From positions 3,145,501-3,209,500 of the forward strand of contig JAHQIY010000010.1 of NCBI GenBank assembly GCA_019054805.1: 64,000 nucleotides of DNA, given 5' to 3'. Both the position numbers and the translations under genes were made by a program. Under the pieces are notes generated by a model. The model was not told the DNA's origin, ran no database searches, and saw only the letters and a program-made list of their open reading frames with translations. Below, piece by piece: positions 68 through 62,712 of this stretch (its first letter is position 1; every line of letters begins with the position of its first letter). Source of the DNA: Brachionus manjavacas. Taxonomy: Eukaryota; Rotifera; Eurotatoria; Ploima; Brachionidae.

Positions 68-2763
68 ATGAACAAGAAGATAAATAAATCAACTTTAAGA
101 ACAAAACCTCTTAATAAAACAAGGTTAGTAATTACACACTGGAATTGTCTTCATTTACCTAGTAATGTTCATCTCTTAGCCAATTTTTTAGCTCAAAAAT
201 GTCCCGACATTGTTTTGCTCAATAAACTAAAGATAGATTTAAGTGAGGCAAATATTTATCTTGATTTTCACAATTGTCAATTCATAACAAAACCACGCAA
301 CAAGTATGGAGGAGGAGTAGCTTTTATAATTAAAGAAGGAATTGAATTTATACAAGATTTCTCTTATGAGGAATTCAATTCCGAACTCCTTTGTATAAAA
401 ATGAACTTAGGAAAGAATAATGAATTGTTTATATTCAGTCTTTATAATCCACCCAATATGCTTCTGAACTTTGAGTTTTTTAAAACAGTAAATAAAAAAT
501 GTAGAAACTACATTTTCGGTGGTTATCTTAACGCCAGAACAAAGCAAATAGGTTGCGTAGGGGAAAATGAAAACGGCATAATGTTGGGAAAAATAATCAA
601 TGATAAGCGTCCTACTCTCAATATTTTTAATAGGAGTTACTTTGAATTTCTTGATCTTTTTTTAGTTTACTCTCATTAATTGACAAAATTACCGACTTTT
701 GTGTCTTAAATAGTCAAGACATGACTAGTGACCATTTCCCAATCGAAGCATCGATTTCTATGGGCCATCAATTAGTAAATAAATCAGCAGCTAAAAAGTT
801 TAACTATAAGAAAGCAATCTGGTAATTAATCAGCGAGATTTTAACAGTGATTATCAAATAGTGAATATCACTGAAAGTTCCCTCACAATAGATCAACTAA
901 ATGATAAAATTACAGAAAAATTATTTCTGCTTCTCATAAAATCATTCCTTATCATTCTCAGAAAATCTACAAAACCAGTCTTCCCCCGAACATTGTTTTT
1001 TTGATAAAAGAACGCAGGAAAGTAAGAAGAAACTTCGAAAAAACTCGCTGTCAAAAGCTCAAGCAAAAATTTAATCAACTTACATTCGAGTTAAAGGCCT
1101 CTTTAAATAAATTCCAGAATCAAAATTGGTTTAATTTTATTGAGAAAATGGGAAAAAACCCACTGACAAGTAGACCATTCTGGAAAAAAATAAATAAATT
1201 TAGATCAAAAAAGGATCAAATTTAATCCCAAATTTGTTTTTAAATGACAAGGAATTCAAAACTAATGAAGAAAAGGGAAAATGCTTCGGAGAACTCTTAT
1301 CCTCAATGTTTAGTCCTAATTCTGATTTAATTGATACTAAGAAAGATTTCGAAATACTTAATTCTAACTCTGAATTCTTTAGAAATTATGATCAGTCTAA
1401 TTTTAATGATCCAATTTGCTTAAATGAATTAATTATGACTCTAAAAAGATTGAAAAATGAAGCGGCATCAGGACCTGACCAAATACATAATTAAATGTTA
1501 AAAAACTTACCCAGAAATTCATTAATAGAAATTATAATTATATTACTCTAATTTACAAGATCCTTTAAATTATAGACTAATTAGTATAACGAGTTGCTTA
1601 GGAAAAATACAGGAACGAAAGGTTTATTCAAGATTATACAAATTTTTGGAATAAAATTCACTCCTTATCCAGGAGCAATCTGGATTTAGGAAACACCAGC
1701 GAACATCAGATAATCTTTTCTTTTTAATTCAAAAAATTGTGGAATCATTTAATAGAAAAAAAAGAGTTTGTGGCCTTTTTTTTGATATTTCTTAAGCCTT
1801 CGATAGGGTTTGGCATGAGAGTTTACTTTTTAAATTGATTAAATTGAATCCACCTCATTACTTGACTAACTGGATAAGATCCTTTTTAGATAGTATGACA
1901 ATTAAGGTAAATGTGAATGACCACTTGAGCGACGAATATCAAATAACTGCAGGTGTTCCTCAAGGCTCATTAATTAGTCCTCTTTTATTTAGTATATATA
2001 TTAATGACATCCCCAAAAGAAACAAAACAAATAACGAATACTCTCTGCTTTTCGCAGATGATCTAGTTACATTCTTCATTTATAACAAAAAAGGGAACCT
2101 AGAAAATAAGATAAATAAATACACCAACGAACTAGAACAATGTCTCATTAAATGGAAAATGAAGATATCAGTTGAAAGATCGTGTTCAGTAGTCTTCTTT
2201 AGGTACATAAAAGAGAGTGTTAATCTAAACTTAAAAATTTATGGAAACAGAATAATGAACCAAAAAGAAATCAAGTTTCTTGGTATAAAATTTGATTCAA
2301 AATTAAATTTTAATATATAATATATTAGTAGACGAAATTAAAGAACGCTGCACCAAAAGGCTAAATATTATTAAGATACTGTCAAATAAAAACTGGGGTC
2401 TTACTCAAAACACACTAGGAAATTTATATAAATCTTTAGTCGGATCAATTTTAGACTGCTTTTCCTTGCTTGAATTCATTTTCAGAAAACAATATCGAAA
2501 AATTTCAAACAATTCTGAATACAGCAGTAAGATCTATCCTTAAGTTATAATATGATACTCCCTACAACATCATGCATCATGAAGCTTTTAATAAACTTAA
2601 ACTACTAACAGTCTCAAATCGGCTTTTTGAGTTGAGTGAGAGATATGTCGGGACAGGACTGAGTCATTCAATTCAATTGGTTGTAAGACTCGTGGAGGAA
2701 TACAAAGATATTATACAAAAAACTGCTTATAAAAACTTGAAATGGCCACTTAACAACATTTAA
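68..2763 (+). mobile_element. Jockey-like non-LTR retrotransposon (LINE), degraded copy 1
   Basis: This is a dead LINE ORF2. The apurinic-type endonuclease domain lies at 68-679 (conserved NKYGGGVAF and SLYNPPN stretches). Linker and RT N-terminus lie at 1001-1494, with the AASGPDQIHN motif. RT palm and thumb follow at 1790-2320, with AFDRVWHE, GVPQGSLISPLLF and the catalytic FADD box. A C-terminal remnant lies at 2440-2763. The reading frame is broken by several stops and frameshifts, including a TAA just before AFDRVWHE. About 85 bp is missing near 1530 relative to the copy at 10267-12717. The usual endonuclease GDxNAR box reads GGYLNAR, so the catalytic Asp is lost. Encoded activity in live relatives is nicking of target DNA and target-primed reverse transcription. 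The assignment to a Jockey-like group is from RT motifs only. Confidence 0.9.
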
Positions 2764-10039: not shown

Positions 10040-12717
10040 GATTATTTATTTATCTATTTGTTAACTGTACCGAGCTTAAGATCCTTATGAATAAAAATTA
10101 AAAATAAAAATAAAGTTCAGTAAAATAAAAAATAAAAAAATAGAAATAAAAATATGAAAAAGTTTATGAGAGTTAAAAGTAAAATTAAAAGTAAAATCAT
10201 TTAAGACAAAATTAATGCAATAGTATTTCATTAAAATATTAATTTTTAATTTCAATAATTATTATTAACTCAAATCAAAAAGCCGATTTGAGACTGTTAG
10301 TAGTTTAAGTTTATTAAAAGCTTCATGATGCATGATGTTGTAGGGAGTATCATATTATAACTTAAGGATAGATCTTACTGCTGTATTCAGAATTGTTTGA
10401 AATTTTTCGATATTGTTTTCTGAAAATGAATTCAAGCAAGGAAAAGCAGTCTAAAATTGATCCGACTAAAGATTTATATAAATTTCCTAGTGTGTTTTGA
10501 GTAAGACCCCATTTTTTATTTGACAGTATCTTAATAATATTTAGCCTTTTGGTGCAGCGTTCTTTAATTTCGTCTACTAATATATTATATATTAAAATTT
10601 AATTTTGAATCAAATTTTATACCAAGAAACTTGATTTCTTTTTGGTTCATTATTCTGTTTCCATAAATTTTTAAGTTTAGATTAACACTCTCTTTTATGT
10701 ACCTAAAGAAGACTACTGAACACGATCTTTCAACTGATATCTTCATTTTCCATTTAATGAGACATTGTTCTAGTTCGTTGGTGTATTTATTTATCTTATT
10801 TTCTAGGTTCCCTTTTTTGTTATAAATGAAGAATGTAACTAGATCATCTGCGAAAAGCAGAGAGTATTCGTTATTTGTTTTGTTTCTTTTGGGGATGTCA
10901 TTAATATATATACTAAATAAAAGAGGACTAATTAATGAGCCTTGAGGAACACCTGCAGTTATTTGATATTCGTCGCTCAAGTGGTCATTCACATTTACCT
11001 TAATTGTCATACTATCTAAAAAGGATCTTATCCAGTTAGTCAAGTAATGAGGTGGATTCAATTTAATCAATTTAAAAAGTAAACTCTCATGCCAAACCCT
11101 ATCGAAGGCTTAAGAAATATCAAAAAAAAGGCCACAAACTCTTTTTTTTCTATTAAATGATTCCACAATTTTTTGAATTAAAAAGAAAAGATTATCTGAT
11201 GTTCGCTGGTGTTTCCTAAATCCAGATTGCTCCTGGATAAGGAGTGAATTTTGTTCCAAAAATTTGTATAATCTTGAATAAACTTTTCGTTCCTGTATTT
11301 TTCCTAAGCAACTCGTTATACTAATTGATCTATAATTTAAAGGATCTTGTAAATAAGAGTCCTTTTTTTGAATCATTTTAATGTTCGAAGTTTTCCACGC
11401 TTTCGGGACCTTACCTTCTCGAAGAGATAAATTAAAAAGTTCTATAATTTCTATTAATGAATTTCTAGGTAAGTTTTTTAACATTAGATTATGAATTTGG
11501 TCAGGTCCTGATGCCGCTTCATTTTTCAATCTTTTTAGAGTCATAATTAATTCATTTAAGCAAATTGGATCATTAAAATTAGACTGATCATAATTTCTAA
11601 AGAATTCAGAGTTAGAATTAAGTATTTCGAAATCTTTCTTAGTATCAATTAAATCAGAATTAGGACTAAACATTGAGGATAAGAGTTCTCCGAAGCATTT
11701 TCCCTTTTCTTCATTAGTTTTGAATTCCTTGTCATTTAAAAACAAATTTGGGATTAAATTTGATCCTTTTTTGATCTAAATTTATTTATTTTTTTCCAGA
11801 ATGGTCTACTTGTCAGTGGGTTTTTTCCCATTTTCTCAATAAAATTAAACCAATTTTGATTCCAGAATTTTTTTAAAGAGGCCTTTAACTCGAATGTAAG
11901 TTGATTAAATTTTTTCTTGAGATTTTGACAGCGAGTTTTTTGAAAGTTTCTTCTTACTTTCCTGCGTTCTTTTATCAGAATAACAATGTTCGGGGGGAAG
12001 ACTGGTTTTGTAGATTTTCTGAGAATGATAAGGAATGCTTTTATGTGAAGTAGAAATAATTTTTTCTGTAATTTTATCATTTAGTTGATCTATTGTGAGG
12101 GAACTTTCAGTGATATTTACTATTTGAGAATTTAAAATCTCGCTGAATAATTGCCAGTTTGCTTTCTTATAGTTAAACTTTTTAGCTGCTAATTTATTTT
12201 CTAATTGATAGCCCATAGAAATTGATACTATACTAATTGACAAGTCGGTAATTTTGTCAATTAGTATAGATGAAACTAAAAAATATCAAGAATTTCAAAG
12301 TAATTCCTATTAAAAATATTGAAAGTAGGACGCTTATCATTTACTCTTGAAAAGTCTAACTCATTGATTATTCTTTCCAACATTGCCGTTTTCATTTTCC
12401 CCTACGCAACCTATTTGCTTTGTTCTGGCGTTAGGATAACCACCGAAAATGTAGTTTCTACATTTTTTATTTACTGTTTTAAAAAACTCAAAGTTCAGAA
12501 GCATATTGGGTGGATTATAAAGACTGTTGAATTCCTCATAAGAAAAATCTTGTATAAATTCAATTCCTTCTTTAATTATAAAAGCTACTCCTCTTCCATA
12601 CTTGTTGCGTGGTTTAGTTATGAACTGATAATTGTGAAAATCAAGATAAAAATCTGCCTCACTCTAATCTATCTTTACTTCATTGAGCAAAACAATGTCG
12701 GGACATTTTTGAGCTAA
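10040..12717 (-). mobile_element. Jockey-like LINE, degraded copy 2 (inverted relative to copy 1)
   Basis: On the minus strand this copy runs from the endonuclease (12717 to ~12320) through the RT N-terminal block (11745-11110, with AASGPDQIHN and SGFRKHQRTSD) to the RT palm (11070-10585, GVPQGS and FADD). It then reaches a C-terminal remnant ending near 10267. The 161-residue palm segment is identical to that of copy 1. Both copies share the stop before AFDRVWHE, the broken GGYxNAR box and the extra TATATA insertion. This copy keeps the ~85 bp that copy 1 has lost, and it is 5'-truncated. A conserved 3' hairpin tail lies at 10040-10090. Confidence 0.9.
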
Positions 12718-36525: not shown

Positions 36526-36916
36526 GTCATTGATTTTTTTAATGACAAAATCCTTTTTATTAGGTTTAATTTACAATAAATTAATTTAATTGACAAAAAT
36601 TAAATTTAATTCACAATTATTTATCTAAAGTTACAAATATTTAATTTAATTGACAAAAAAACTAATTGACTGTTTCTCTCCCTGCCTTTTCGAATCGTTT
36701 CAAAAACAAAAATGAAAAAAGTTGAAAATTTTCCTAAGAAAATTGCATTTAGTCAAACTTGTTTGGCCTTTTTTGGTTTTAAAGGTTTCAAAATATTTAC
36801 AATATTTTACATAATTTTACGTAAATTTACCAAAAGAAACGTAAAATTTGGTAAAATCCATGTAGCAAATCATCACTGTAAATAATCACGACTTAACTAA
36901 TTCGACTTGTTTTCAG
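36526..36916. other. End of RPTOR intron 1; Tc1-type terminus at 36784-36878
   Basis: A terminal sequence whose reverse complement reads CAGTGATGATTTGCTACATG ends at 36878 and is followed by TA. It resembles the end at 39915 just past exon 2 and the end at 32343. The opposite end of this element was not found. The remainder is AT-rich, up to the splice acceptor. Confidence 0.5.
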
Positions 36917-39886
36917 ATATCGATTATGTCCGGACCCGACATCAGAAGACGTGAAAAAGCTGTGCGTTTCGTTGCGCAAAAACGCCAAAGAAGAACGCGT
37001 CCTGTTCCACTACAACGGACACGGCGTGCCGCGTCCAACAGTCAACGGCGAAATCTGGGTCTTCAACAAAGAATTCACTCAATACATACCTCTGTCTCTT
37101 TACGAAGTGCAGACATGGATGGGCACACCGTCCATTTACGTGTGGGAATGCTCGAATGCGGGCCTGGTCGTGCAGTCATTTCTGAGCTTCGAGAGCGACC
37201 GCGAGGCCGAGTTCAAGAAGCAAATGGAAGAGTCGGAGAGCGGAAGCTCGTGCGCCTCCGTGCCCAACTTCAAAGACTCGATTCATCTGGCGGCCTGCTC
37301 GGCCACCCAGCTCCTGCCCCAGCATCCCGACCTGCCCGTCGACCTCTTCACCTCGTGCCTCACCACGCCGATCAAAACCGCCCTCTACTGGTACGTCACC
37401 CAAAAGCACTCGTGTCAACTCATACCCGGCCTCACTCTCGACCTGTTGGAAAAAATACCCGGCCAAATAAGCGACCGACGCACCATGATGGGCGAACTCA
37501 ACTGGATATTCACGGCCATCACCGACACCATCGCCTGGAACCTGCTCGACTCCGACCTATTCCAAAAGCTCTTTCGCCAAGACCTGCTAGTCGCCAGCCT
37601 GTTCCGCAACTTTCTGCTCGCCGAGCGCATCATCAAGTCATTCGACTGCACGCCGGTCTCCCACCCGGCGCTGCCGGCCACCAGCGAGCACCCCCTGTGG
37701 CAGAGCTGGGACCTCGCTCTGGACATGTGCATCAGCCAACTGCCGCACTTGTTCGACGCAAGCGGCAGCCAAACGGGCGACTTTGTCTCGTGCGGCTTCT
37801 TCACCCAGCAGATTGAAATATTCGAGCTGTGGCTCAAGTTGAACGTGAGCTCGGAGAGAGCGCCCGAGCAGCTGCCAGTCGTGCTCCAGGTCCTGCTCAG
37901 CCAGCAGCACCGGCTCAAGGCGCTCGAGCTGCTCGCCAAATTCATCGACTTGGGCGCATGGGCAGTCTCGGCGGCCCTCTCTGTAGGCATCTTTCCCTAC
38001 GTGCTCAAGCTGCTGACCACCCAGCCCAAGGAGCTGCGGCCGCTGCTCACGTTCATATGGGCGAAGATTTTGGCCGTGGACCGGTCGTGTCAGGCCGAGC
38101 TCGTCAAAGACAACGGCCACGTCTACTTCATTCAAATGCTGTCCGAGAGCGACGTAGAGCCCGACCAAAAGGTCTACTCGGCGTTTGTTCTCTCGTCGCT
38201 GGTGCACAACTATCCGATCGGACAAAAGAGCGCCAAACAAAGCCACTTGATAGCGGCGTGCTCGTTTCTGCTCACTGACGAGAGCTCGCGCGACTATGCG
38301 CACACGCTGCTGCGCAAGTGGGTCTGCATTTGTCTGGGCCTGTGTTGGATCAAGTATCCGGAGGCCAGGTGGGAGGGCGTGCGCAACAACGCGCATTTGT
38401 TGCTCAAAAAGTTGGTCGGTGACCCGGAGGCGGAAGTGCGCGCCGCCGCCGTCTTCGCTCTCGGCACCTACATTGATGCCGGACACGGCAAAGAGGGCAC
38501 GTTCGAACAGGCCATCGAAATCGACTCCCAAATAGTCAACTCTCTCATCAAAAGCTACGATTGTGTGTTTTTGGTGCGCAAGGAGTTGATCGTAGCGCTG
38601 CACAGCTACATTAATCGATTTTGTAGCGAGCCGGCGGATTGTGGCAAGCAAACAAAGATCGTGTTCGCCAAAGCGGTGGCCACCCTGTTCGAAATGCAGA
38701 GCGATCCGTATCCGGAGTGTGCGGCACTGGCTCAGCGAGTTCTTAGAAAAAACCAGCACTTGATCAACAAATTTGAGAATTTGAAGAAAATGAGCGAAGC
38801 GGGCACGGCGGCCGGCGAAACAGACGAGGCCGATCTGGACACAGGCCTAGTCGCCTGGTCGTCCAACTACTTTCTCAGACCGCTGTTGGCCTCGCACGGA
38901 CCCGACCGCCACCAGCCGTTGCCCGTCAATCGACACGTCGATCTGTACTCGAGCGAAAAGCTCGACCAGCACTGCAAGTTATTGTACAACTATAAGACGC
39001 GTCGCACGCCCGTCCAATGGACCCAGCCGGCTCAAATGGAAGAGCTGCTCCAAATACACCACCAGCCCTATCCCATTCACGTCAAATTCAATCCCAACAA
39101 CGAGCAAATCTTTGTTGCCGACATTCAAAACAACGTGACTGTGTACGACAGTGCCAATCGGACAAAATTGTTGTCGTTCTCTAGTAGTCGCAAGCCGGCC
39201 ATCATACGCTCCTTCAAGCTCATAAATACGCAGCACGAGCCGATTATTTTGACGGGCAGCGACGACTTGGCAGTCAAGTTTTTCAAGCCCGACCTGCACA
39301 ACCTCAAGCAGACCCAGCTGATCACGGCCTTCACGGCCTTCAACTCGGTGAGAGAGTCGACCATCGAGGCCGGCCTGATAGTCGAGTGGGACGAGGCCAA
39401 CGAGGTGCTGATGTGTGCCGGCGACACCAACTATATCCGCGTGTGGGACATGAACAAAGAGCTGTACAAGGATTATTTGACCGAGCTGAAGAGCTGTGTG
39501 AGCAGTTTGTCGTGTGGCGATAGTTTCACGATAGCGGGCTTTGGCAACGGATGCGTAAAGTTGTTCGACTTTAGGAGCCCGAGCGGGGCCATTGGTATTG
39601 TGCACAGTGATTCGGTGAGTTCGTTCATGTCCTCGACGCCTGTCATTCACCGCACCAACAGCATGTACGAGTCCAAGTACTCCTATTCCAACAAGTTGTA
39701 TGCACACAATTCCTTTGTGCTCAAGACCAGCGTTCATGTGCAGGAGAACACGCTGGTATCGAGCGGTGTCTTGGGCGACATCACCGTCTACGATTTGAGA
39801 TACATGAAAAAGGCCATTGACAAGTCGTTCAACAACGAGAAGGCATCTGCTCTAGAGTGTCATCCTGCCAACAGGCTCATTGCTGT
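36917..39886 (+). CDS. RPTOR: RPTOR (Raptor) exon 2: RNC core, HEAT repeats, most of WD40
   Basis: Raptor is the mTORC1 subunit that recruits TOS-motif substrates and binds Rag GTPases on the lysosome. This 2,970-bp exon encodes residues ~216-1206. It continues the caspase-like RNC domain with HYNGHGVPRP at ~245-254 and ECSNAG at ~292-297. The armadillo/HEAT region follows (RKWVCICLGLCWIKYPEARW, VRAAAVFALGTYI). After a linker of roughly 80 residues, WD40 blades begin at KFNPNNEQIFVADIQN. The joins are acceptor CAG at 36916 and donor GTAAGT at 39887. Exons 1-3 sum to 3,840 bp, a 1,279-residue protein; human Raptor is 1,335. The exon is strikingly GC-rich against AT-rich introns. Long antisense ORFs here are composition artefacts. 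Confidence 0.96.
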
Positions 39887-39914
39887 GTAAGTTGCTTAGT
39901 TCAAAAATTAAATA

Positions 39915-54130: not shown

Positions 54131-55195
54131 ATTTTTTTATTATTTTTATTTATTTATTTGTATTCGGTACTGACCTAATACTCCTTCAGATTAAAAAAAA
54201 ATTTATAATCAAAATAAATTAAACAAAAATAAAAAATAAGAATAAAATAGAATGTAGGAAGTATAATTTAAAAAGGGAAATGTTATGAAAGTATTAAAAA
54301 ATAGATAGAATGAAATAAGAAGTAACAAGATACACATGTTTAATTATCTGATGGCTCAGGAAAAAAGTAAGAAATAGTAAGGTAACAGTTACACAATGGA
54401 GTAGGGTATTCGGTATTTCTTGATTCGAAACCGGCTTTGTATTCCTCCACCAGTTTGACAACTAATGGAATTGAATGACTCAGTCCTGCGCCAAAATATC
54501 TCTCACATAACTCAAAAAGTCGATTCGAGACTATAGTAAGTAATTTAAGTTTGTTAAAAGCTTCGTGATGCATGATATTGGAGGGAGTATCATATTTTAA
54601 TCTAAGTATAGATCTTATTGCTGTATTCAGAATTCTTTGAAATTTTTTGATATTTTTTTCTAAAAATGAATTCAATCAAGAAAAAGAATAGTCTAGGATT
54701 GATCCGACTAAAGATTTATATAAATTTCCTAGTGTATTTTGAGTGAGACCCAATTTTTTATTTGACAGTATCTTAATAATATTTAGCCTTTTGTTGCAGC
54801 GTTCTTTAATTTCATCTACTAATATATTAAAATTTAATTTAGTGTCAAATTTTATACCAAGAAACGTGATTTCTTATTCTGTTTCCATAAATTTTTGAGT
54901 TAAGATTACACTCTCTTATTTATACTCAGAGAAGACTACTGAACATGAATTTTCCACTGATATTTTCATTTTCCACTTAATTAGCCATTGTTCTAGTTCG
55001 TAGGTGTTTTTATTTATCTTATTTTCAAGGTTCCCATTTTTACTGAAACTAAAAAAAGTTACTAGATCATCCGCAAAAAGTAGAGAGTATTTATTATTTG
55101 TTTTATTTCTTTTGGGGATGTCATTAATATATTTATTAAATAAAAGAGGGCTAATTACTGAGCCTTGAGGGACACCTGCAGTAAGGAGTATTTAA
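54131..55195 (-). mobile_element. Jockey-like LINE, copy 6 (5'-truncated)
   Basis: The minus strand starts at the RT GVPQGS motif (complement near 55185). It passes a FADD region near 55060 and the thumb. It ends with the C-terminal frame 54675-54340 (KYDTPSNIMHHEAFNKLKLL) and the conserved 3' hairpin tail at 54140-54190. It is more diverged from copies 1 and 2 than they are from each other and lacks their shared TATATA insertion. Confidence 0.82.
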
Positions 55196-55734
55196 CATTT
55201 ACAAATTCCGCCCACAATTTTCTAAAAAATCGCTTTAAAATTTAATTATTTTTTTTAGCAATTTATAAACAAGGACATATTTAACCCAAAGGTTCATTTT
55301 TCAAGATTTTAAATCAAGTCGAACGGAACTTGAGCGGGAACATCTTGGAATTGTAAATGCAGTCGAAAAATTCAAATATTATTTATATGGCACTAAATTC
55401 ATTATAATTACCGACCATAATCCATTAACATATTTAAATAACATAACATTATCATCTTCAAGACTAACTAGGTGGCGATTGAAACTGGCCGAATACAACT
55501 TCAAAATTTTATATAAAAAATGAAGGATAGATACACGAGCCGAACGTATTGGCAATAGCTAAACCTAATCAAATTAAAATAATAATCAAATTTGTTAACA
55601 AAAATTTGATTATTATTTTAATTTGGGAAAACAGATTGAAGAAAAAGAAATTTGAAACTAAAAATTTTTACATTTATATATTTATTTAATTTTTATATTT
55701 AAATATTTGTTTAAATTTTTACCGTAAAGGGGGA
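55196..55734 (+). mobile_element. Ty3/gypsy fragment: RNase H, hairpin and polypurine tract
   Basis: The plus strand at ~55317-55530 encodes Ty3-type RNase H: HLGIVNAVEKFKYYLYG, ITDHNPLTYLNN and LTRWRLKLAEYNF. The rest of pol is deleted. A perfect 24-bp inverted repeat with an 8-nt loop follows at 55570-55625. The polypurine-like AAAGGGGGAGG at 55724-55734 directly precedes a TGTAAAGATG that would be the 3' LTR start. It is related to, but distinct from, the element at 3000-6650. Confidence 0.7.
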
Positions 55735-56731: not shown

Positions 56732-58855
56732 TTATTCTTTTTCCTCTTTAATATGTTTTGCCCATACTACTAATTCATCATTTATCCTTGTAGGAATTGT
56801 CCAAGTTTTTTTATTTTTTGAACAAGAACTAATTAATTTATTGCAAGTTTGATCATACTTTAGAGCTCTTAATTTTTTTTCATGTCCAATTAATGAATGA
56901 ACTAAATGTAATTTTTCACCATAAATTTTAAATATTTCAATTGTTTTATCGTTGAAACCTATGGCAATCATGTCGTTTTTTTCAATATACTCAATTAAAA
57001 ATGGTTTGTTTTTCAATTTGAATTTTTTAGTATCTTGATATATTAAATACTTTCCAGATAATTTGTATTGTTTAAATTTGTTAGATATTTGATGTTTTAT
57101 CATATTTGATTGATTTTTTTTGTCCTCATACTCATACTCAATTTCTCCTTTATCATCTTCACAAAATAGGAATTTGTTTGAAAAAATTTCTTTTTTGGTG
57201 AATATATTCTGAAAATCATTTGTTCTCGGACTTGGTAGGCTTCGTGAATCAATTAAAAAAAATTTCGATTTAATCCAAAAATTAAAATGTGGCTTTTTAA
57301 CAATTCTTTTTAAAACATTTTCACATTTTTTGTATTGTTTTTTAGGTTTTGTGTTGTTTTTTTGTAATTGATATAAATACAACTGCTGGTTATAAAATAT
57401 CATGAAATCCCATGCTTCATTATTTGGATCTTTAGGCCAAAACACATGAACTTTGTTTGAATTAATTTGCTCAAGACAACAATCTTCTAATACCAATGTT
57501 TGGTCATCAAAAATGATTTGATCGTGAGTTAAACTTGTTTCACTATTAATTAAAGACTGAATGCATTCTAAACATCTTGGAAAGCCCCCTTTAGGATTAG
57601 TCATCTGTTTTAATAAATTTTCAAAACTTTTTCCAAAACTTTTTTGAAAATAGTCCCTTGTAAGAGAATAGTGCTGGTCAAAATTCAAATTCATAAAATC
57701 TATCATGTAATTAATATCAGATGCTAATTCATCTCTTATCGCAATTTCATTGCTCTTCGATAATTTTACATTTGTTTCTTCCCTCTGCCCAGTCTTTGCA
57801 TCTTTATCTTCCTTCAGCAAATACAAGTTATTGGAATATTGCAGACAAAATATCGTAGTTGTGTTATGGCAAGTCATAATCACTTGAATGTCTAGTTCTT
57901 TGATTAAAACATTTTGAATAAATTTTACCAAATTAATTACCAAATTGGGTTCACAATGAGAGTCTGGTTCATCAAGCAAAATTAATTGCTTGGTTAGACT
58001 CAAATGTCTTCCAATTTTAATATTTTCCTTATCTTTCCATATTACAAAAAAATGAAGAATCAGCTTTTCACCTGGTGACAACTGATTAAATTTAATTCGT
58101 ATTTTTGGGTTTTTTTTGTTTTCAAAGTCAATCAATTCATTCAAATCTTTCTTTTCTACAATGCTGCTATGATTTCTCACAATTCTGTACCCAAATTCAA
58201 GCTCAAGACCGTATTTTTGTTTTAATAAATTTTTTTTTTCAAAAGCCTCATTAATTTGTTTGATATCAAAATCATAAGGTGAATTCAGCAGCAAAAGTTG
58301 CTGCAAATTTCCAAAACAAATTTTTTTCAGTATTTGTCTTTTAAAATATTTCTTAAATTCCACAAAATGGTTAAAAAAACCAATCGACTCATCTGGCATT
58401 TTATCAAGATCTTCGTCTTTATGTTTAAATTTGATAATTTCTTTATATACTTTGTAGATGCGCTCAACTTCAAGTTCTTTTTCTTTTTTTTCGCCAATTC
58501 CCTTTGGTGTTACCTTCAGCGATTTCCACTTATCAAATGAACAGTTGAAAAAAATTTCGATCATCTCTTGGGTCACCAAGGGATGACTGGTTAAATTTGG
58601 ATCATAGCCATCCGGATCTTCTCCATAATCTAGCTTTCTTACGATTATTTTGGGAAACAAAGCGTTCTTTTTGATTACTATAAATTCACGAATGACTTTT
58701 AGCAGCCTTGATTTTCCGATTCCATTTTTTCCAGTTATTACCATCAACATGTCCAAATCATCATTTGAATCAATTTCTAAAATATACTTTTTTGAATTTT
58801 TGTCGGACAGATCTTTCAAAGATTCCTTCAAATCATTTTTATTAAAATAAACCAT
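56732..58855 (-). CDS. P-loop ABC/OLD-like ATPase with C-terminal WD40-like segment, function unknown
   Basis: This is an intact single-exon frame of 707 residues from ATG at 58855. Walker A GKNGIGKS lies at 42-49, a 200-residue helical insertion follows, then the ABC signature LSPGEK (259-264), Walker B LILLDEPDSH (291-300) and an H-loop TCHN (328-331). This is the layout of SMC/ABC-like AAA_15/AAA_21 ATPases of the OLD/RecF type, many of which act in bacterial and phage-defence systems. Residues ~465-500 (NEAWDFMIFYNQQLYLYQLQ) recall the core of degenerate PD-(D/E)XK nuclease-like domains. Residues 600-707 form one WD-repeat-like unit with GH at 657-658 and VVW at 696-698. It is AT-rich and lysine/asparagine-rich like its surroundings, lacking the GC-rich coding style of RPTOR. 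No family name can be given with confidence. Confidence 0.8.
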   Translation of the reverse strand: MVYFNKNDLKESLKDLSDKNSKKYILEIDSNDDLDMLMVITGKNGIGKSRLLKVIREFIVIKKNALFPKIIVRKLDYGEDPDGYDPNLTSHPLVTQEMIEIFFNCSFDKWKSLKVTPKGIGEKKEKELEVERIYKVYKEIIKFKHKDEDLDKMPDESIGFFNHFVEFKKYFKRQILKKICFGNLQQLLLLNSPYDFDIKQINEAFEKKNLLKQKYGLELEFGYRIVRNHSSIVEKKDLNELIDFENKKNPKIRIKFNQLSPGEKLILHFFVIWKDKENIKIGRHLSLTKQLILLDEPDSHCEPNLVINLVKFIQNVLIKELDIQVIMTCHNTTTIFCLQYSNNLYLLKEDKDAKTGQREETNVKLSKSNEIAIRDELASDINYMIDFMNLNFDQHYSLTRDYFQKSFGKSFENLLKQMTNPKGGFPRCLECIQSLINSETSLTHDQIIFDDQTLVLEDCCLEQINSNKVHVFWPKDPNNEAWDFMIFYNQQLYLYQLQKNNTKPKKQYKKCENVLKRIVKKPHFNFWIKSKFFLIDSRSLPSPRTNDFQNIFTKKEIFSNKFLFCEDDKGEIEYEYEDKKNQSNMIKHQISNKFKQYKLSGKYLIYQDTKKFKLKNKPFLIEYIEKNDMIAIGFNDKTIEIFKIYGEKLHLVHSLIGHEKKLRALKYDQTCNKLISSCSKNKKTWTIPTRINDELVVWAKHIKEEKE

Positions 58856-60260: not shown

Positions 60261-62712
60261 GATAGTAGTAGTAGTAGTAGTTTTGACTGTAGCTGGCTAG
60301 CCAGCGAGTGTGCTGATAAGGCAAACTATGACAGCAGATGTGATTGATTGCTGCTCATCCAGCAATCAATGCCTGCTTTAAAGCTGTTAACATTAGGGGC
60401 TTCAACTAATTGATTTGGCAGTGAGTTCCATATGTTAGCGGTTCTGTTGAAAAAAAAGTTATCTCTATGTTGGAGCCTCGAATTACTTTTGTCTAGACTC
60501 ATTGAGATGAAATCTAGAACTTCCATAAGATTAGATGTACATGACTTTTTCTTGACAAATCCATGCTGTTCTTTAGATATAATATTGTTCTTATAAAGAT
60601 AGTCTTCCATTTTGGTTCTTATTATGCTTTCCATAATTTTGCACGGAATTGAAGTTAAAGACACGGGACGGTAATTGCTGGCCGTTGATTTATCACCTTT
60701 TTTAAACAATGGAGTTATATTTGCTGATCTGAATTGTATTGGAAGCTGACTATTAGATAAAGACTTTCTGAAAATTAAAATTAAAGGAACAGTAAAGGCG
60801 TCTGCACAGTTTTTTAGGAAAAGCGGATGAAGCTTGTCTACACCACATGATTTATTTTGATTAAGGTCTTGTAAATTTTTATAAACCACTTCATAACTAA
60901 TATCATTTGGTTCAATGTCAATATATTCTGAACAGTTTTCATAAAGTTCAGCTACAAAAGGAAGAAGCTCCCCATCTTGTTCAATATCAAAAACATCTTG
61001 AAAACATTTATTTAGTAAATTTGATATCTCTTTCGATTCTTGCGTTAATTCATTGTTTGACTTCTTTAATGCTTTGATTTATTTTCTGATTACTTGTTGA
61101 TCATTTAGATATTTGTATAATAATTTTGGATTCTTCTTAGATTTATCCACTAAATTTTGTTCAAAAGTAAGTCTGGCTCTTTTTATATCTGAAGAAACTA
61201 ATTTACAGTTACTTTTGTAATAAAGATTCATATCCTTCTAGTTATATGAACATTTCCTGTATCTAAGATTTTTTTGATTCCTAATTAAGATCTTGAGATC
61301 ATCTTTTATCCAAGGTTTTGAGATACTTTTCTTTTTAGAGCCATCCGTCACTGGAATGAATCGATTACTAGCTTCGCTGACATAGAAAATAAAATCTTTG
61401 TACATTTCCTGAATATTTAAATTCTCAAATAAGTGCACCCAATCAATATTTGATAGAAAATCAGATATTTTTTCAAAGTCAGCTTTACTATAAATAAATT
61501 TTTCAGTATTAAATGATTCCTTACTAACCTTGTTTTTGAGAACAAAATTGAGAAAGATAACCATATTCCTTTATTAATGTTACCAAGCACAAATTTTATA
61601 TCGATTGCATACACACTGCCAGACTGAGTCGTGAAAATCAAATCCAAAGTTTTAACAGCTATTGATAGAAAAATGTCGCTTAGCGTCTCGCTGAATTTAT
61701 GTTCGATGCCATTTTCGTTTAAGACTTCTGAAACACAGCAATTTGACCAGATGATTGATGGAAAGTTAAATTCACCCATAATTGTATCCTTTTACATTTG
61801 CATTTGAGATGCTCTTAAACCAAAACTCACTTACTGCCACAATTTGTGGGTTATGCTTCAATAACAACACTGAATTCATCAAGTTTATTTTCCAAAGAAG
61901 TAGCATTTAAATTCATTCATTTTAAAGATTCGAGATTATCCACACGTGATGACGCTTTTGATGAACGATTATTGCTTCTTGAATTTGACGACTTGATTTC
62001 CACGGATGCCATATCGAAAGGGCGAGTCTTGTGAAAGACCATTATTTGCGTCTTTGTTTCCACAATTCATAGTCTAAAACTCTTTCGGTTTCAGTCAAAT
62101 CTGGACTAAGATAAATAGATTTGAATCTCGCAACTTTTTGGTTACTAGGAGTAGTGGATTTCTGTTTGCTTCTTCTTTGAGTTCTTCTAAAATTGGGCCT
62201 GGTTTACTCTGGTCTTTAGATCTCAAGCTTCTCGAATACGGTGGCTTGACATCACCTTTTCCAATATTGGTCAGAAATTGTTTGATTTTTTCTTCATCTT
62301 CTGCCTCCTGTCTGTTAGAATCTCTATCTTTGATTCTGGTACACCATAAATTTTCACATTTTTTTTTCTTTTGATTCTTTTATTCATTTGCTGATGGTTG
62401 CATTTGCTTCAGCTATCTGGTTGGCTGGTTTTTTTGCATTTTTTGTCCCTTTTTTTATCACTTGAATCCACTGACTACTGATGTCTTATGATTTTGCTGT
62501 TTTATTTGCTGCTGCCAATTCAAATTTTAGTTTGTTTATTTCAATGTCTTTCTCCATTTCTCCTTCCTTTAGATGTTTCACATGATTTGAAAACTCCAGG
62601 ATGAAATACGCAATATTTCCGCACCATTCATGCAAATATTTTGAATGCCCAGATACGGTTCCCTGTTCAAACGTTGCCCAGTTTGTTTCAATCAAAATAT
62701 TTGAGTCCATTT
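60261..62712 (-). mobile_element. CR1-like LINE, second subfamily, internally deleted
   Basis: On the minus strand, the ORF1 start (62710-62486, MDSNILIETNWATFEQGT) and ORF1 remainder lead to an endonuclease C-terminal part (61779-61600, GEFNFPSIIW). The connecting domain and RT fingers follow (60889-60460: NKSCGVDKLHPLFL, SNYRPVSLTS, EQHGFVKKKS). The frame then jumps from LDKSN straight into RDNFFFNRTANIWNSLPNQL, the last ORF2 block. The catalytic RT palm and thumb are therefore deleted in frame. The 3' end is (AGT)n on the plus strand, i.e. an ACT tail like the element at 18565. It has many stops and is non-autonomous. Confidence 0.82.

Follow-up and report, generated by a model that had tools for sequence, protein, structure and literature searches.

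An uninterrupted gene in the genome of the rotifer Brachionus manjavacas joins, within a single chain of 707 amino acids, an ABC ATPase domain resembling those of PtuA, AriA and OLD proteins, a middle domain that is nuclease-like by motif, and a WD40-like tail. The gene lies on the minus strand of the 64,000-nucleotide stretch of DNA that was analysed (the window), and it belongs to a small family of animal genes that share this ATPase, of which it is one of the two intact members found. Our favoured reading, put forward tentatively as one that falls a little short of probable, is that a prokaryote-type ATPase was acquired by the animal and expanded there, with a nuclease-like domain replacing TOPRIM and a WD40-like tail in two of the copies. 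If confirmed, it would provide an instance in which an animal has retained and reshaped a bacterial ATPase of the defence type together with a nuclease, and the movement of OLD/PtuA-like proteins into animals would become directly testable in a small genome. A comparable case is that of TIR proteins transferred into amoebae (PMC13142454). Among the titles and abstract openings listed by literature searches, with subscription journals mostly outside their coverage, no animal counterpart combining ATPase and nuclease was found.

The frame, which the initial annotation had described as uninterrupted without giving a strand, runs intact from ATG to TAA (Table 1). Given the base composition of the gene's own flanks, 709 stop-free codons would arise by chance with a probability of about 10^-28.8, which rules out a chance open frame at this position. 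The G+C content at codon positions 1, 2 and 3 is 0.36, 0.216 and 0.253, respectively. The ATPase motifs also follow one another in the order first reported (Walker A, ABC signature, Walker B, H-loop), and the motif reported from the middle region is present as WDFMIFYNQQLYLYQLQ at about residues 482-498.

Table 1. Features of the gene and its flanks, in window coordinates
Feature	Position	Strand	Basis
Uninterrupted gene, 707 codons, ATG to TAA	56732..58855	-	Length significance, codon-position G+C, intact C14 paralogue
PtuA/AriA/OLD-like ABC ATPase domain, residues ~30-350	57806..58768	-	Pfam, PADLOC, profile against PDB
Walker A GKNGIGKS, residues 42-49	58709..58732	-	G42, N44, G45, G47, K48 and S49 invariant, 4/4 ATPase rows
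ABC signature LSPGE, residues 259-263	58067..58081	-	Invariant, 4/4 ATPase rows
Walker B LILLDEPD, residues 291-298	57962..57985	-	L293-D298 invariant, 4/4 ATPase rows
H-loop MTCH, residues 327-330	57866..57877	-	H330 invariant, 4/4 ATPase rows
Nuclease-like domain, residues ~400-530, PD-(D/E)XK-like by motif only	57266..57658	-	Four-locus alignment, shuffles
Codon of E412, candidate motif I	57620..57622	-	Aligned loci
Codon of D483, candidate motif II	57407..57409	-	Aligned loci
Codon of Q496, candidate motif III (Q-x-K/T/S/Q)	57368..57370	-	Aligned loci
WD40-like tail, one to two repeats, residues ~601-698	56762..57055	-	Pfam, genome search, shuffles
Flanking LINE reverse-transcriptase remnant	60326..61078	-	Frame identified by eye
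Flanking LINE reverse-transcriptase remnant, interrupted	54500..55200	-	By-eye comparison with reverse-transcriptase frame 1796-2320

The window belongs to contig C10, one of 61 contigs in an assembly of 114.17 Mb. The host is an animal, since the window also contains frames for raptor (E 8.8e-244) and Twinkle, a mitochondrial helicase (E 4.7e-94), and since a myosin tail encoded elsewhere in the assembly, on contig C8, is most similar to striated-muscle myosin (5.6e-188). Because raptor and Twinkle share the window, bacterial contamination is ruled out as the source of the C10 locus. Each of these two frames spans only part of its protein, and both seem to continue in other exons. The dead transposons earlier noticed around the gene are borne out by the reverse-transcriptase remnants on either side of it, which were recognised by eye. 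Elsewhere in the window, two reverse-transcriptase frames in opposite orientation (1796-2320, plus strand; 10585-11109, minus strand) have an identical 174-aa translation. The raptor frame (36897-39890) coincides with 2-kb bins of 44% and 52% G+C, the remaining bins of the window ranging from 20% to 37%.

The initial annotation had likened the ATPase to those of prokaryotic defence proteins, and this likeness is upheld by several comparisons. The window protein matches Pfam AAA_21 (E 1.9e-8, 35.2 bits against a cut-off of 27), while in PADLOC its best match is AriA (3.6e-13), with AbiLi at 2e-12 and both above the PtuA models. A profile of four family ATPases places the retron Ec83 ATPase first in the PDB (9.7e-6), followed by general ABC proteins from 1.7e-4, the Ec78 ATPase (0.034) and AriA (0.05). 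A single-sequence search of the PDB gave weak matches, the best (0.0077) being a WD40 protein and the first ABC ATPase standing at 0.0097. By sequence comparison, the domain is not exclusively defence-like, as general ABC ATPases also match it, more weakly. The best 25 of 41 NCBIfam matches are all to ABC ATPases of general type and fall far short of their respective cut-offs; the best of them is UrtE (2e-8, 34 bits against a cut-off of 285.8). Structure prediction, which had been proposed as a check, yielded no confident model: a single-sequence AlphaFold model had a mean pLDDT of 33.6 and was unusable for the fold, and a model of residues 1-400 from a seven-row alignment was poor (mean pLDDT 38.4). 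In a Foldseek search with the latter, retron and Septu PtuA chains lead (best E 1.4e-4; four matches at E<=0.001), with SMC, Rad50, AriA and OLD chains at lower ranks, and this support is weak since query TM-scores are only 0.17-0.27.

Outside the genome, in the bacterial, plasmid, phage and viral collections searched, matches were obtained at 11 loci in genome_contigs, two in viral contigs and two in plasmids; one of the 11 (L029) resembles an ordinary ABC transporter by eye. Neither the window protein nor the C14 protein, its intact paralogue, matched phages, and a search of viral contigs with the window protein gave no match. One of five bacterial genomes matched at E<=1 (best 0.09), and in the phylum of L025 (labelled Bacteroidota) two of 395 genomes matched at E<=0.01 (best 0.0038), which is about chance level. 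Pfam detected OLD-like_TOPRIM in two of the seven bacterial frames scanned, two of the seven being from the bacterial-looking contig C21: L024 at 3.6e-6 and L023 at 2.1e-4, the latter just under the cut-off. Among the rows compared by BLASTP, the best match of the window protein outside its family is L023, at 64 bits.

An ATPase phylogeny of 21 rows, a check that the initial annotation had proposed, groups the four family members together (100/99) and makes C10 and C14 sisters (100/98). It does not nest the family inside a bacterial group, so that the position of the family among the bacterial rows is left undecided, and it is flagged for the unusual composition of C10 and C14 as well as for long branches, including that of C6T, a second OLD-like lineage described below. 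Horizontal acquisition of the ATPase by this animal, as the initial annotation had suggested, is plausible from the sequences, because two intact copies have an unbroken frame and the closest ATPases among the collections searched are bacterial; nesting among bacteria is the part of that claim which the 21-row tree does not bear out. An old animal family could instead have been inherited vertically and have lain outside the collections compared. These collections are bacterial, plasmid, phage and viral, and the split between C10 and C14 is ancient, with saturated dS. We nevertheless regard vertical inheritance as very improbable, given that the relatives found are bacterial and that both intact copies are uninterrupted, whereas the raptor and Twinkle frames seem to be multi-exon.

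The search for paralogues that the initial annotation had proposed does find them: within its own genome the window protein has seven matches, which include itself and fall at five loci, with an intact copy on C14 and damaged copies on C3, C27 and C7. The C14 copy is unbroken, encodes 718 aa when read from its first ATG, and is 44-48% identical to the window copy, depending on the aligner. The C3 copy consists of two overlapping frames, the ATPase and then the nuclease-like domain. On C27 (L011:3083-4351) the ATPase is truncated and carries an in-frame tandem repeat, NNGTGNIEDGE, inserted between the signature and Walker B. The copy at C7:5282801 has stops and an integrase-like frame nearby, and C7:5248500-5272000 contains tandem units of ~6.8 kb, 98.1-99.1% identical, which carry family pieces and inverted 0.7-kb repeats. 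A neighbouring segment, C7:5246500-5247324, is 97% like part of the repeat unit and lies inside a 2333-codon stop-free frame.

Unlike the split C3, truncated C27 and stop-bearing C7:5282801 copies, neither C10 nor C14 is supported as a dead pseudogene. Between these two copies, dN/dS is 0.30/2.58 (about 0.12) for residues 30-350, 0.50/1.18 (0.42) for residues 351-540, 0.46/1.47 for residues 440-540, 0.75/1.33 (0.56) for residues 541-600, 0.64/1.64 (0.39) for residues 601-690 and 0.44/1.68 overall, values that give constraint and not its exact strength, because dS is saturated. Every region computed is under constraint below neutrality, the ATPase most of all.

The PD-(D/E)XK motif consists of an acidic residue in a helix, a D, and then (E/Q)-x-K. 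When the middle domain was aligned across four loci (C10, C14, C3 and C7, the last represented by one of its three units), E412, D483 and Q496 were invariant in all four, as were W-P, N-N and A-W alongside them, and all six pairings of the loci outscored the best of 300 shuffles. The four rows gave no Pfam match at E<=10 that would support a nuclease, CR-REase or other, and there was no such match in PADLOC or the PDB; the middle-domain alignment likewise had no match in viral contigs, nor had the C3 nuclease-like domain in plasmids. These motifs suggest a PD-(D/E)XK-like nuclease. The Crinkler-like nuclease that the initial annotation had envisaged becomes more credible in that the paralogues keep E...D...Q-x-[K/T/S], but no profile or confident fold confirms it.

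The position two residues after Q496 (residue 498), where the lysine of the motif would be expected, varies among the loci: it is Q in the window copy, S in C14, T in C3 and K in the C7 unit. The intact copies carry Q or S there, and T and K occur only in damaged copies, the C3 copy being split, the aligned C7 unit being a 146-codon fragment and its two sister units breaking in the middle-domain region. Since intact copies are without K at the lysine position, the working copies could be inactive, and it is a real possibility that the window copy, with its Q at residue 498, is non-cleaving. The damage to both copies that have K or T makes our favoured reading weaker, and it strengthens a rival in which the gene is a domesticated ATPase with a dead nuclease, that is, an ATP-dependent nucleic-acid-binding or scaffold protein whose middle domain binds only. 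This rival accords with the Q-L-Q of the window copy against Q-x-S/T/K elsewhere, and with a dN/dS that is higher in residues 351-540 and in the tail than in the ATPase. The retention of E, D and Q at all four aligned loci speaks against it, and on balance we think it rather unlikely, though deserving of serious attention.

Comparison with known systems places the family beside several ATPase-nuclease combinations, from each of which it differs. PtuA of Septu and of the retrons Ec83 and Ec78 is likewise an ABC ATPase that works with a nuclease. Its partner PtuB, an HNH enzyme, is a separate chain, whereas here the nuclease-like domain is in the same chain, is accompanied by a WD40-like tail, and occurs in an animal. 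OLD-family proteins (GajA, retron OLD, PARIS AriA/AriAB) resemble the window protein in having an ABC ATPase followed by a nuclease domain, mostly in one chain. In them, the C-terminal domain is a TOPRIM, which in PARIS is on a separate gene (PMC10568477). In contrast, the window family is without a TOPRIM match: none was detected in the window protein (Pfam, E<=10) or in four paralogue frames (E<=1), with a library that does detect the domain in the bacterial L024.

Crinkler-RHS effectors also have an NTPase followed by a putative nuclease of the REase superfamily, a common layout of CR C-termini (PMC5289972). The gene might accordingly be an effector of this kind, dispersed along with transposable elements, whose use lies with the element or in a conflict between organisms and not in host defence. 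Besides the shared layout, retroelement-like frames near the copies (by eye) and the tandem amplification of family pieces on C7 fit such an origin. However, the ATPase is ABC/OLD-like by profile, and Walker A begins at residue 42, which leaves little room for a header. The WD40-like tail is a further difference from CR effectors. The Crinkler header PF20147 has no match in this genome, a weak argument since the same test detected none of 14 controls. We consider an effector of this kind improbable.

The WD40-like tail of the initial annotation is corroborated by weak propeller matches and by a homologous tail in C14. The best Pfam WD-repeat propeller covers residues 621-681 (E 9.5e-6, 25.9 bits against a cut-off of 154), WD40 PF00400 gives E 0.17, and all propeller matches are below their curated cut-offs. 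A complete WD40 beta-propeller has about seven blades; the matches here span residues 591-694 at most, so there is room for one to two blades and a complete propeller is absent from the tail. The C14 tail is homologous to that of the window protein (E 1.2e-5; score 103, the highest among shuffles being 58), although the C14 protein itself has no WD40 match in Pfam at E<=1. In a genome search with the tail, the sole further match at E<=0.01 was a multi-frame stretch on C2 (0.0016), which by eye looks like ARPC1, a WD40 protein. The C-terminus of the C3 copy does not resemble the tail, scoring 35 where shuffles average 38. The domain gain that had been proposed is in keeping with a tail that C10 and C14 have and C3 lacks, and loss in C3 explains this equally well.

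Under our favoured reading of an acquired and expanded prokaryote-type ATPase, a working model can be sketched by analogy with OLD and PtuA. ATP binding would pair two ABC heads upon a trigger or upon nucleic acid, and the paired heads would gate or license cleavage by the attached domain, which has E...D...Q-x-[K/T/S], probably adopts a PD-(D/E)XK fold, and stands where OLD proteins have TOPRIM. The WD40-like tail may recruit or tether a partner. The role would presumably be one in intracellular conflict, with the protein either acting on nucleic acid of viruses or transposons or serving as an effector that harms its own cell. A more specific version holds that the animal took a bacterial anti-phage ATPase with a non-TOPRIM nuclease and added a WD40 adaptor, giving a cell-autonomous nuclease defence against viruses or transposons, with the second OLD-like lineage being an independent acquisition; taken as a whole, this version is unlikely.

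The second lineage, C6T, is a frame of 916 open codons (913 aa from the first ATG) at C6:805679-808417 (L057:2680-5418). It matches AAA_21 (1.2e-10) and by eye has a TOPRIM-like C-terminus, with no match to Pfam TOPRIM at E<=0.1. C6T adjoins a gag-like frame (by eye) and has a paralogue at C1:1230837-1232354, a 741-aa frame of 32% identity. OLD-like genes probably entered this genome twice and separately, since in BLASTP C6T scores 69, 67 and 63 bits with L025, L001 and L002 but 41 bits with C3 or C14, and is not among the nine best matches of C10.

A genome search with AAA_21 scored 13 of 74 candidates and is a partial census, the window's own copy being missing from its list. Six of the 13 matches (L055, L056, L058, L059, L060 and L062) resemble ABC-transporter, SMC or ABC-F genes by eye. 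Four others, three on C21 and one on C45, were left out of the animal count because both contigs look bacterial by their frames (L053, L054, L061 and L063, judged by eye). C45 carries the gene order dnaA-dnaN-recF-gyrB, and C21 is AT-rich and has AAA_21 proteins of its own.
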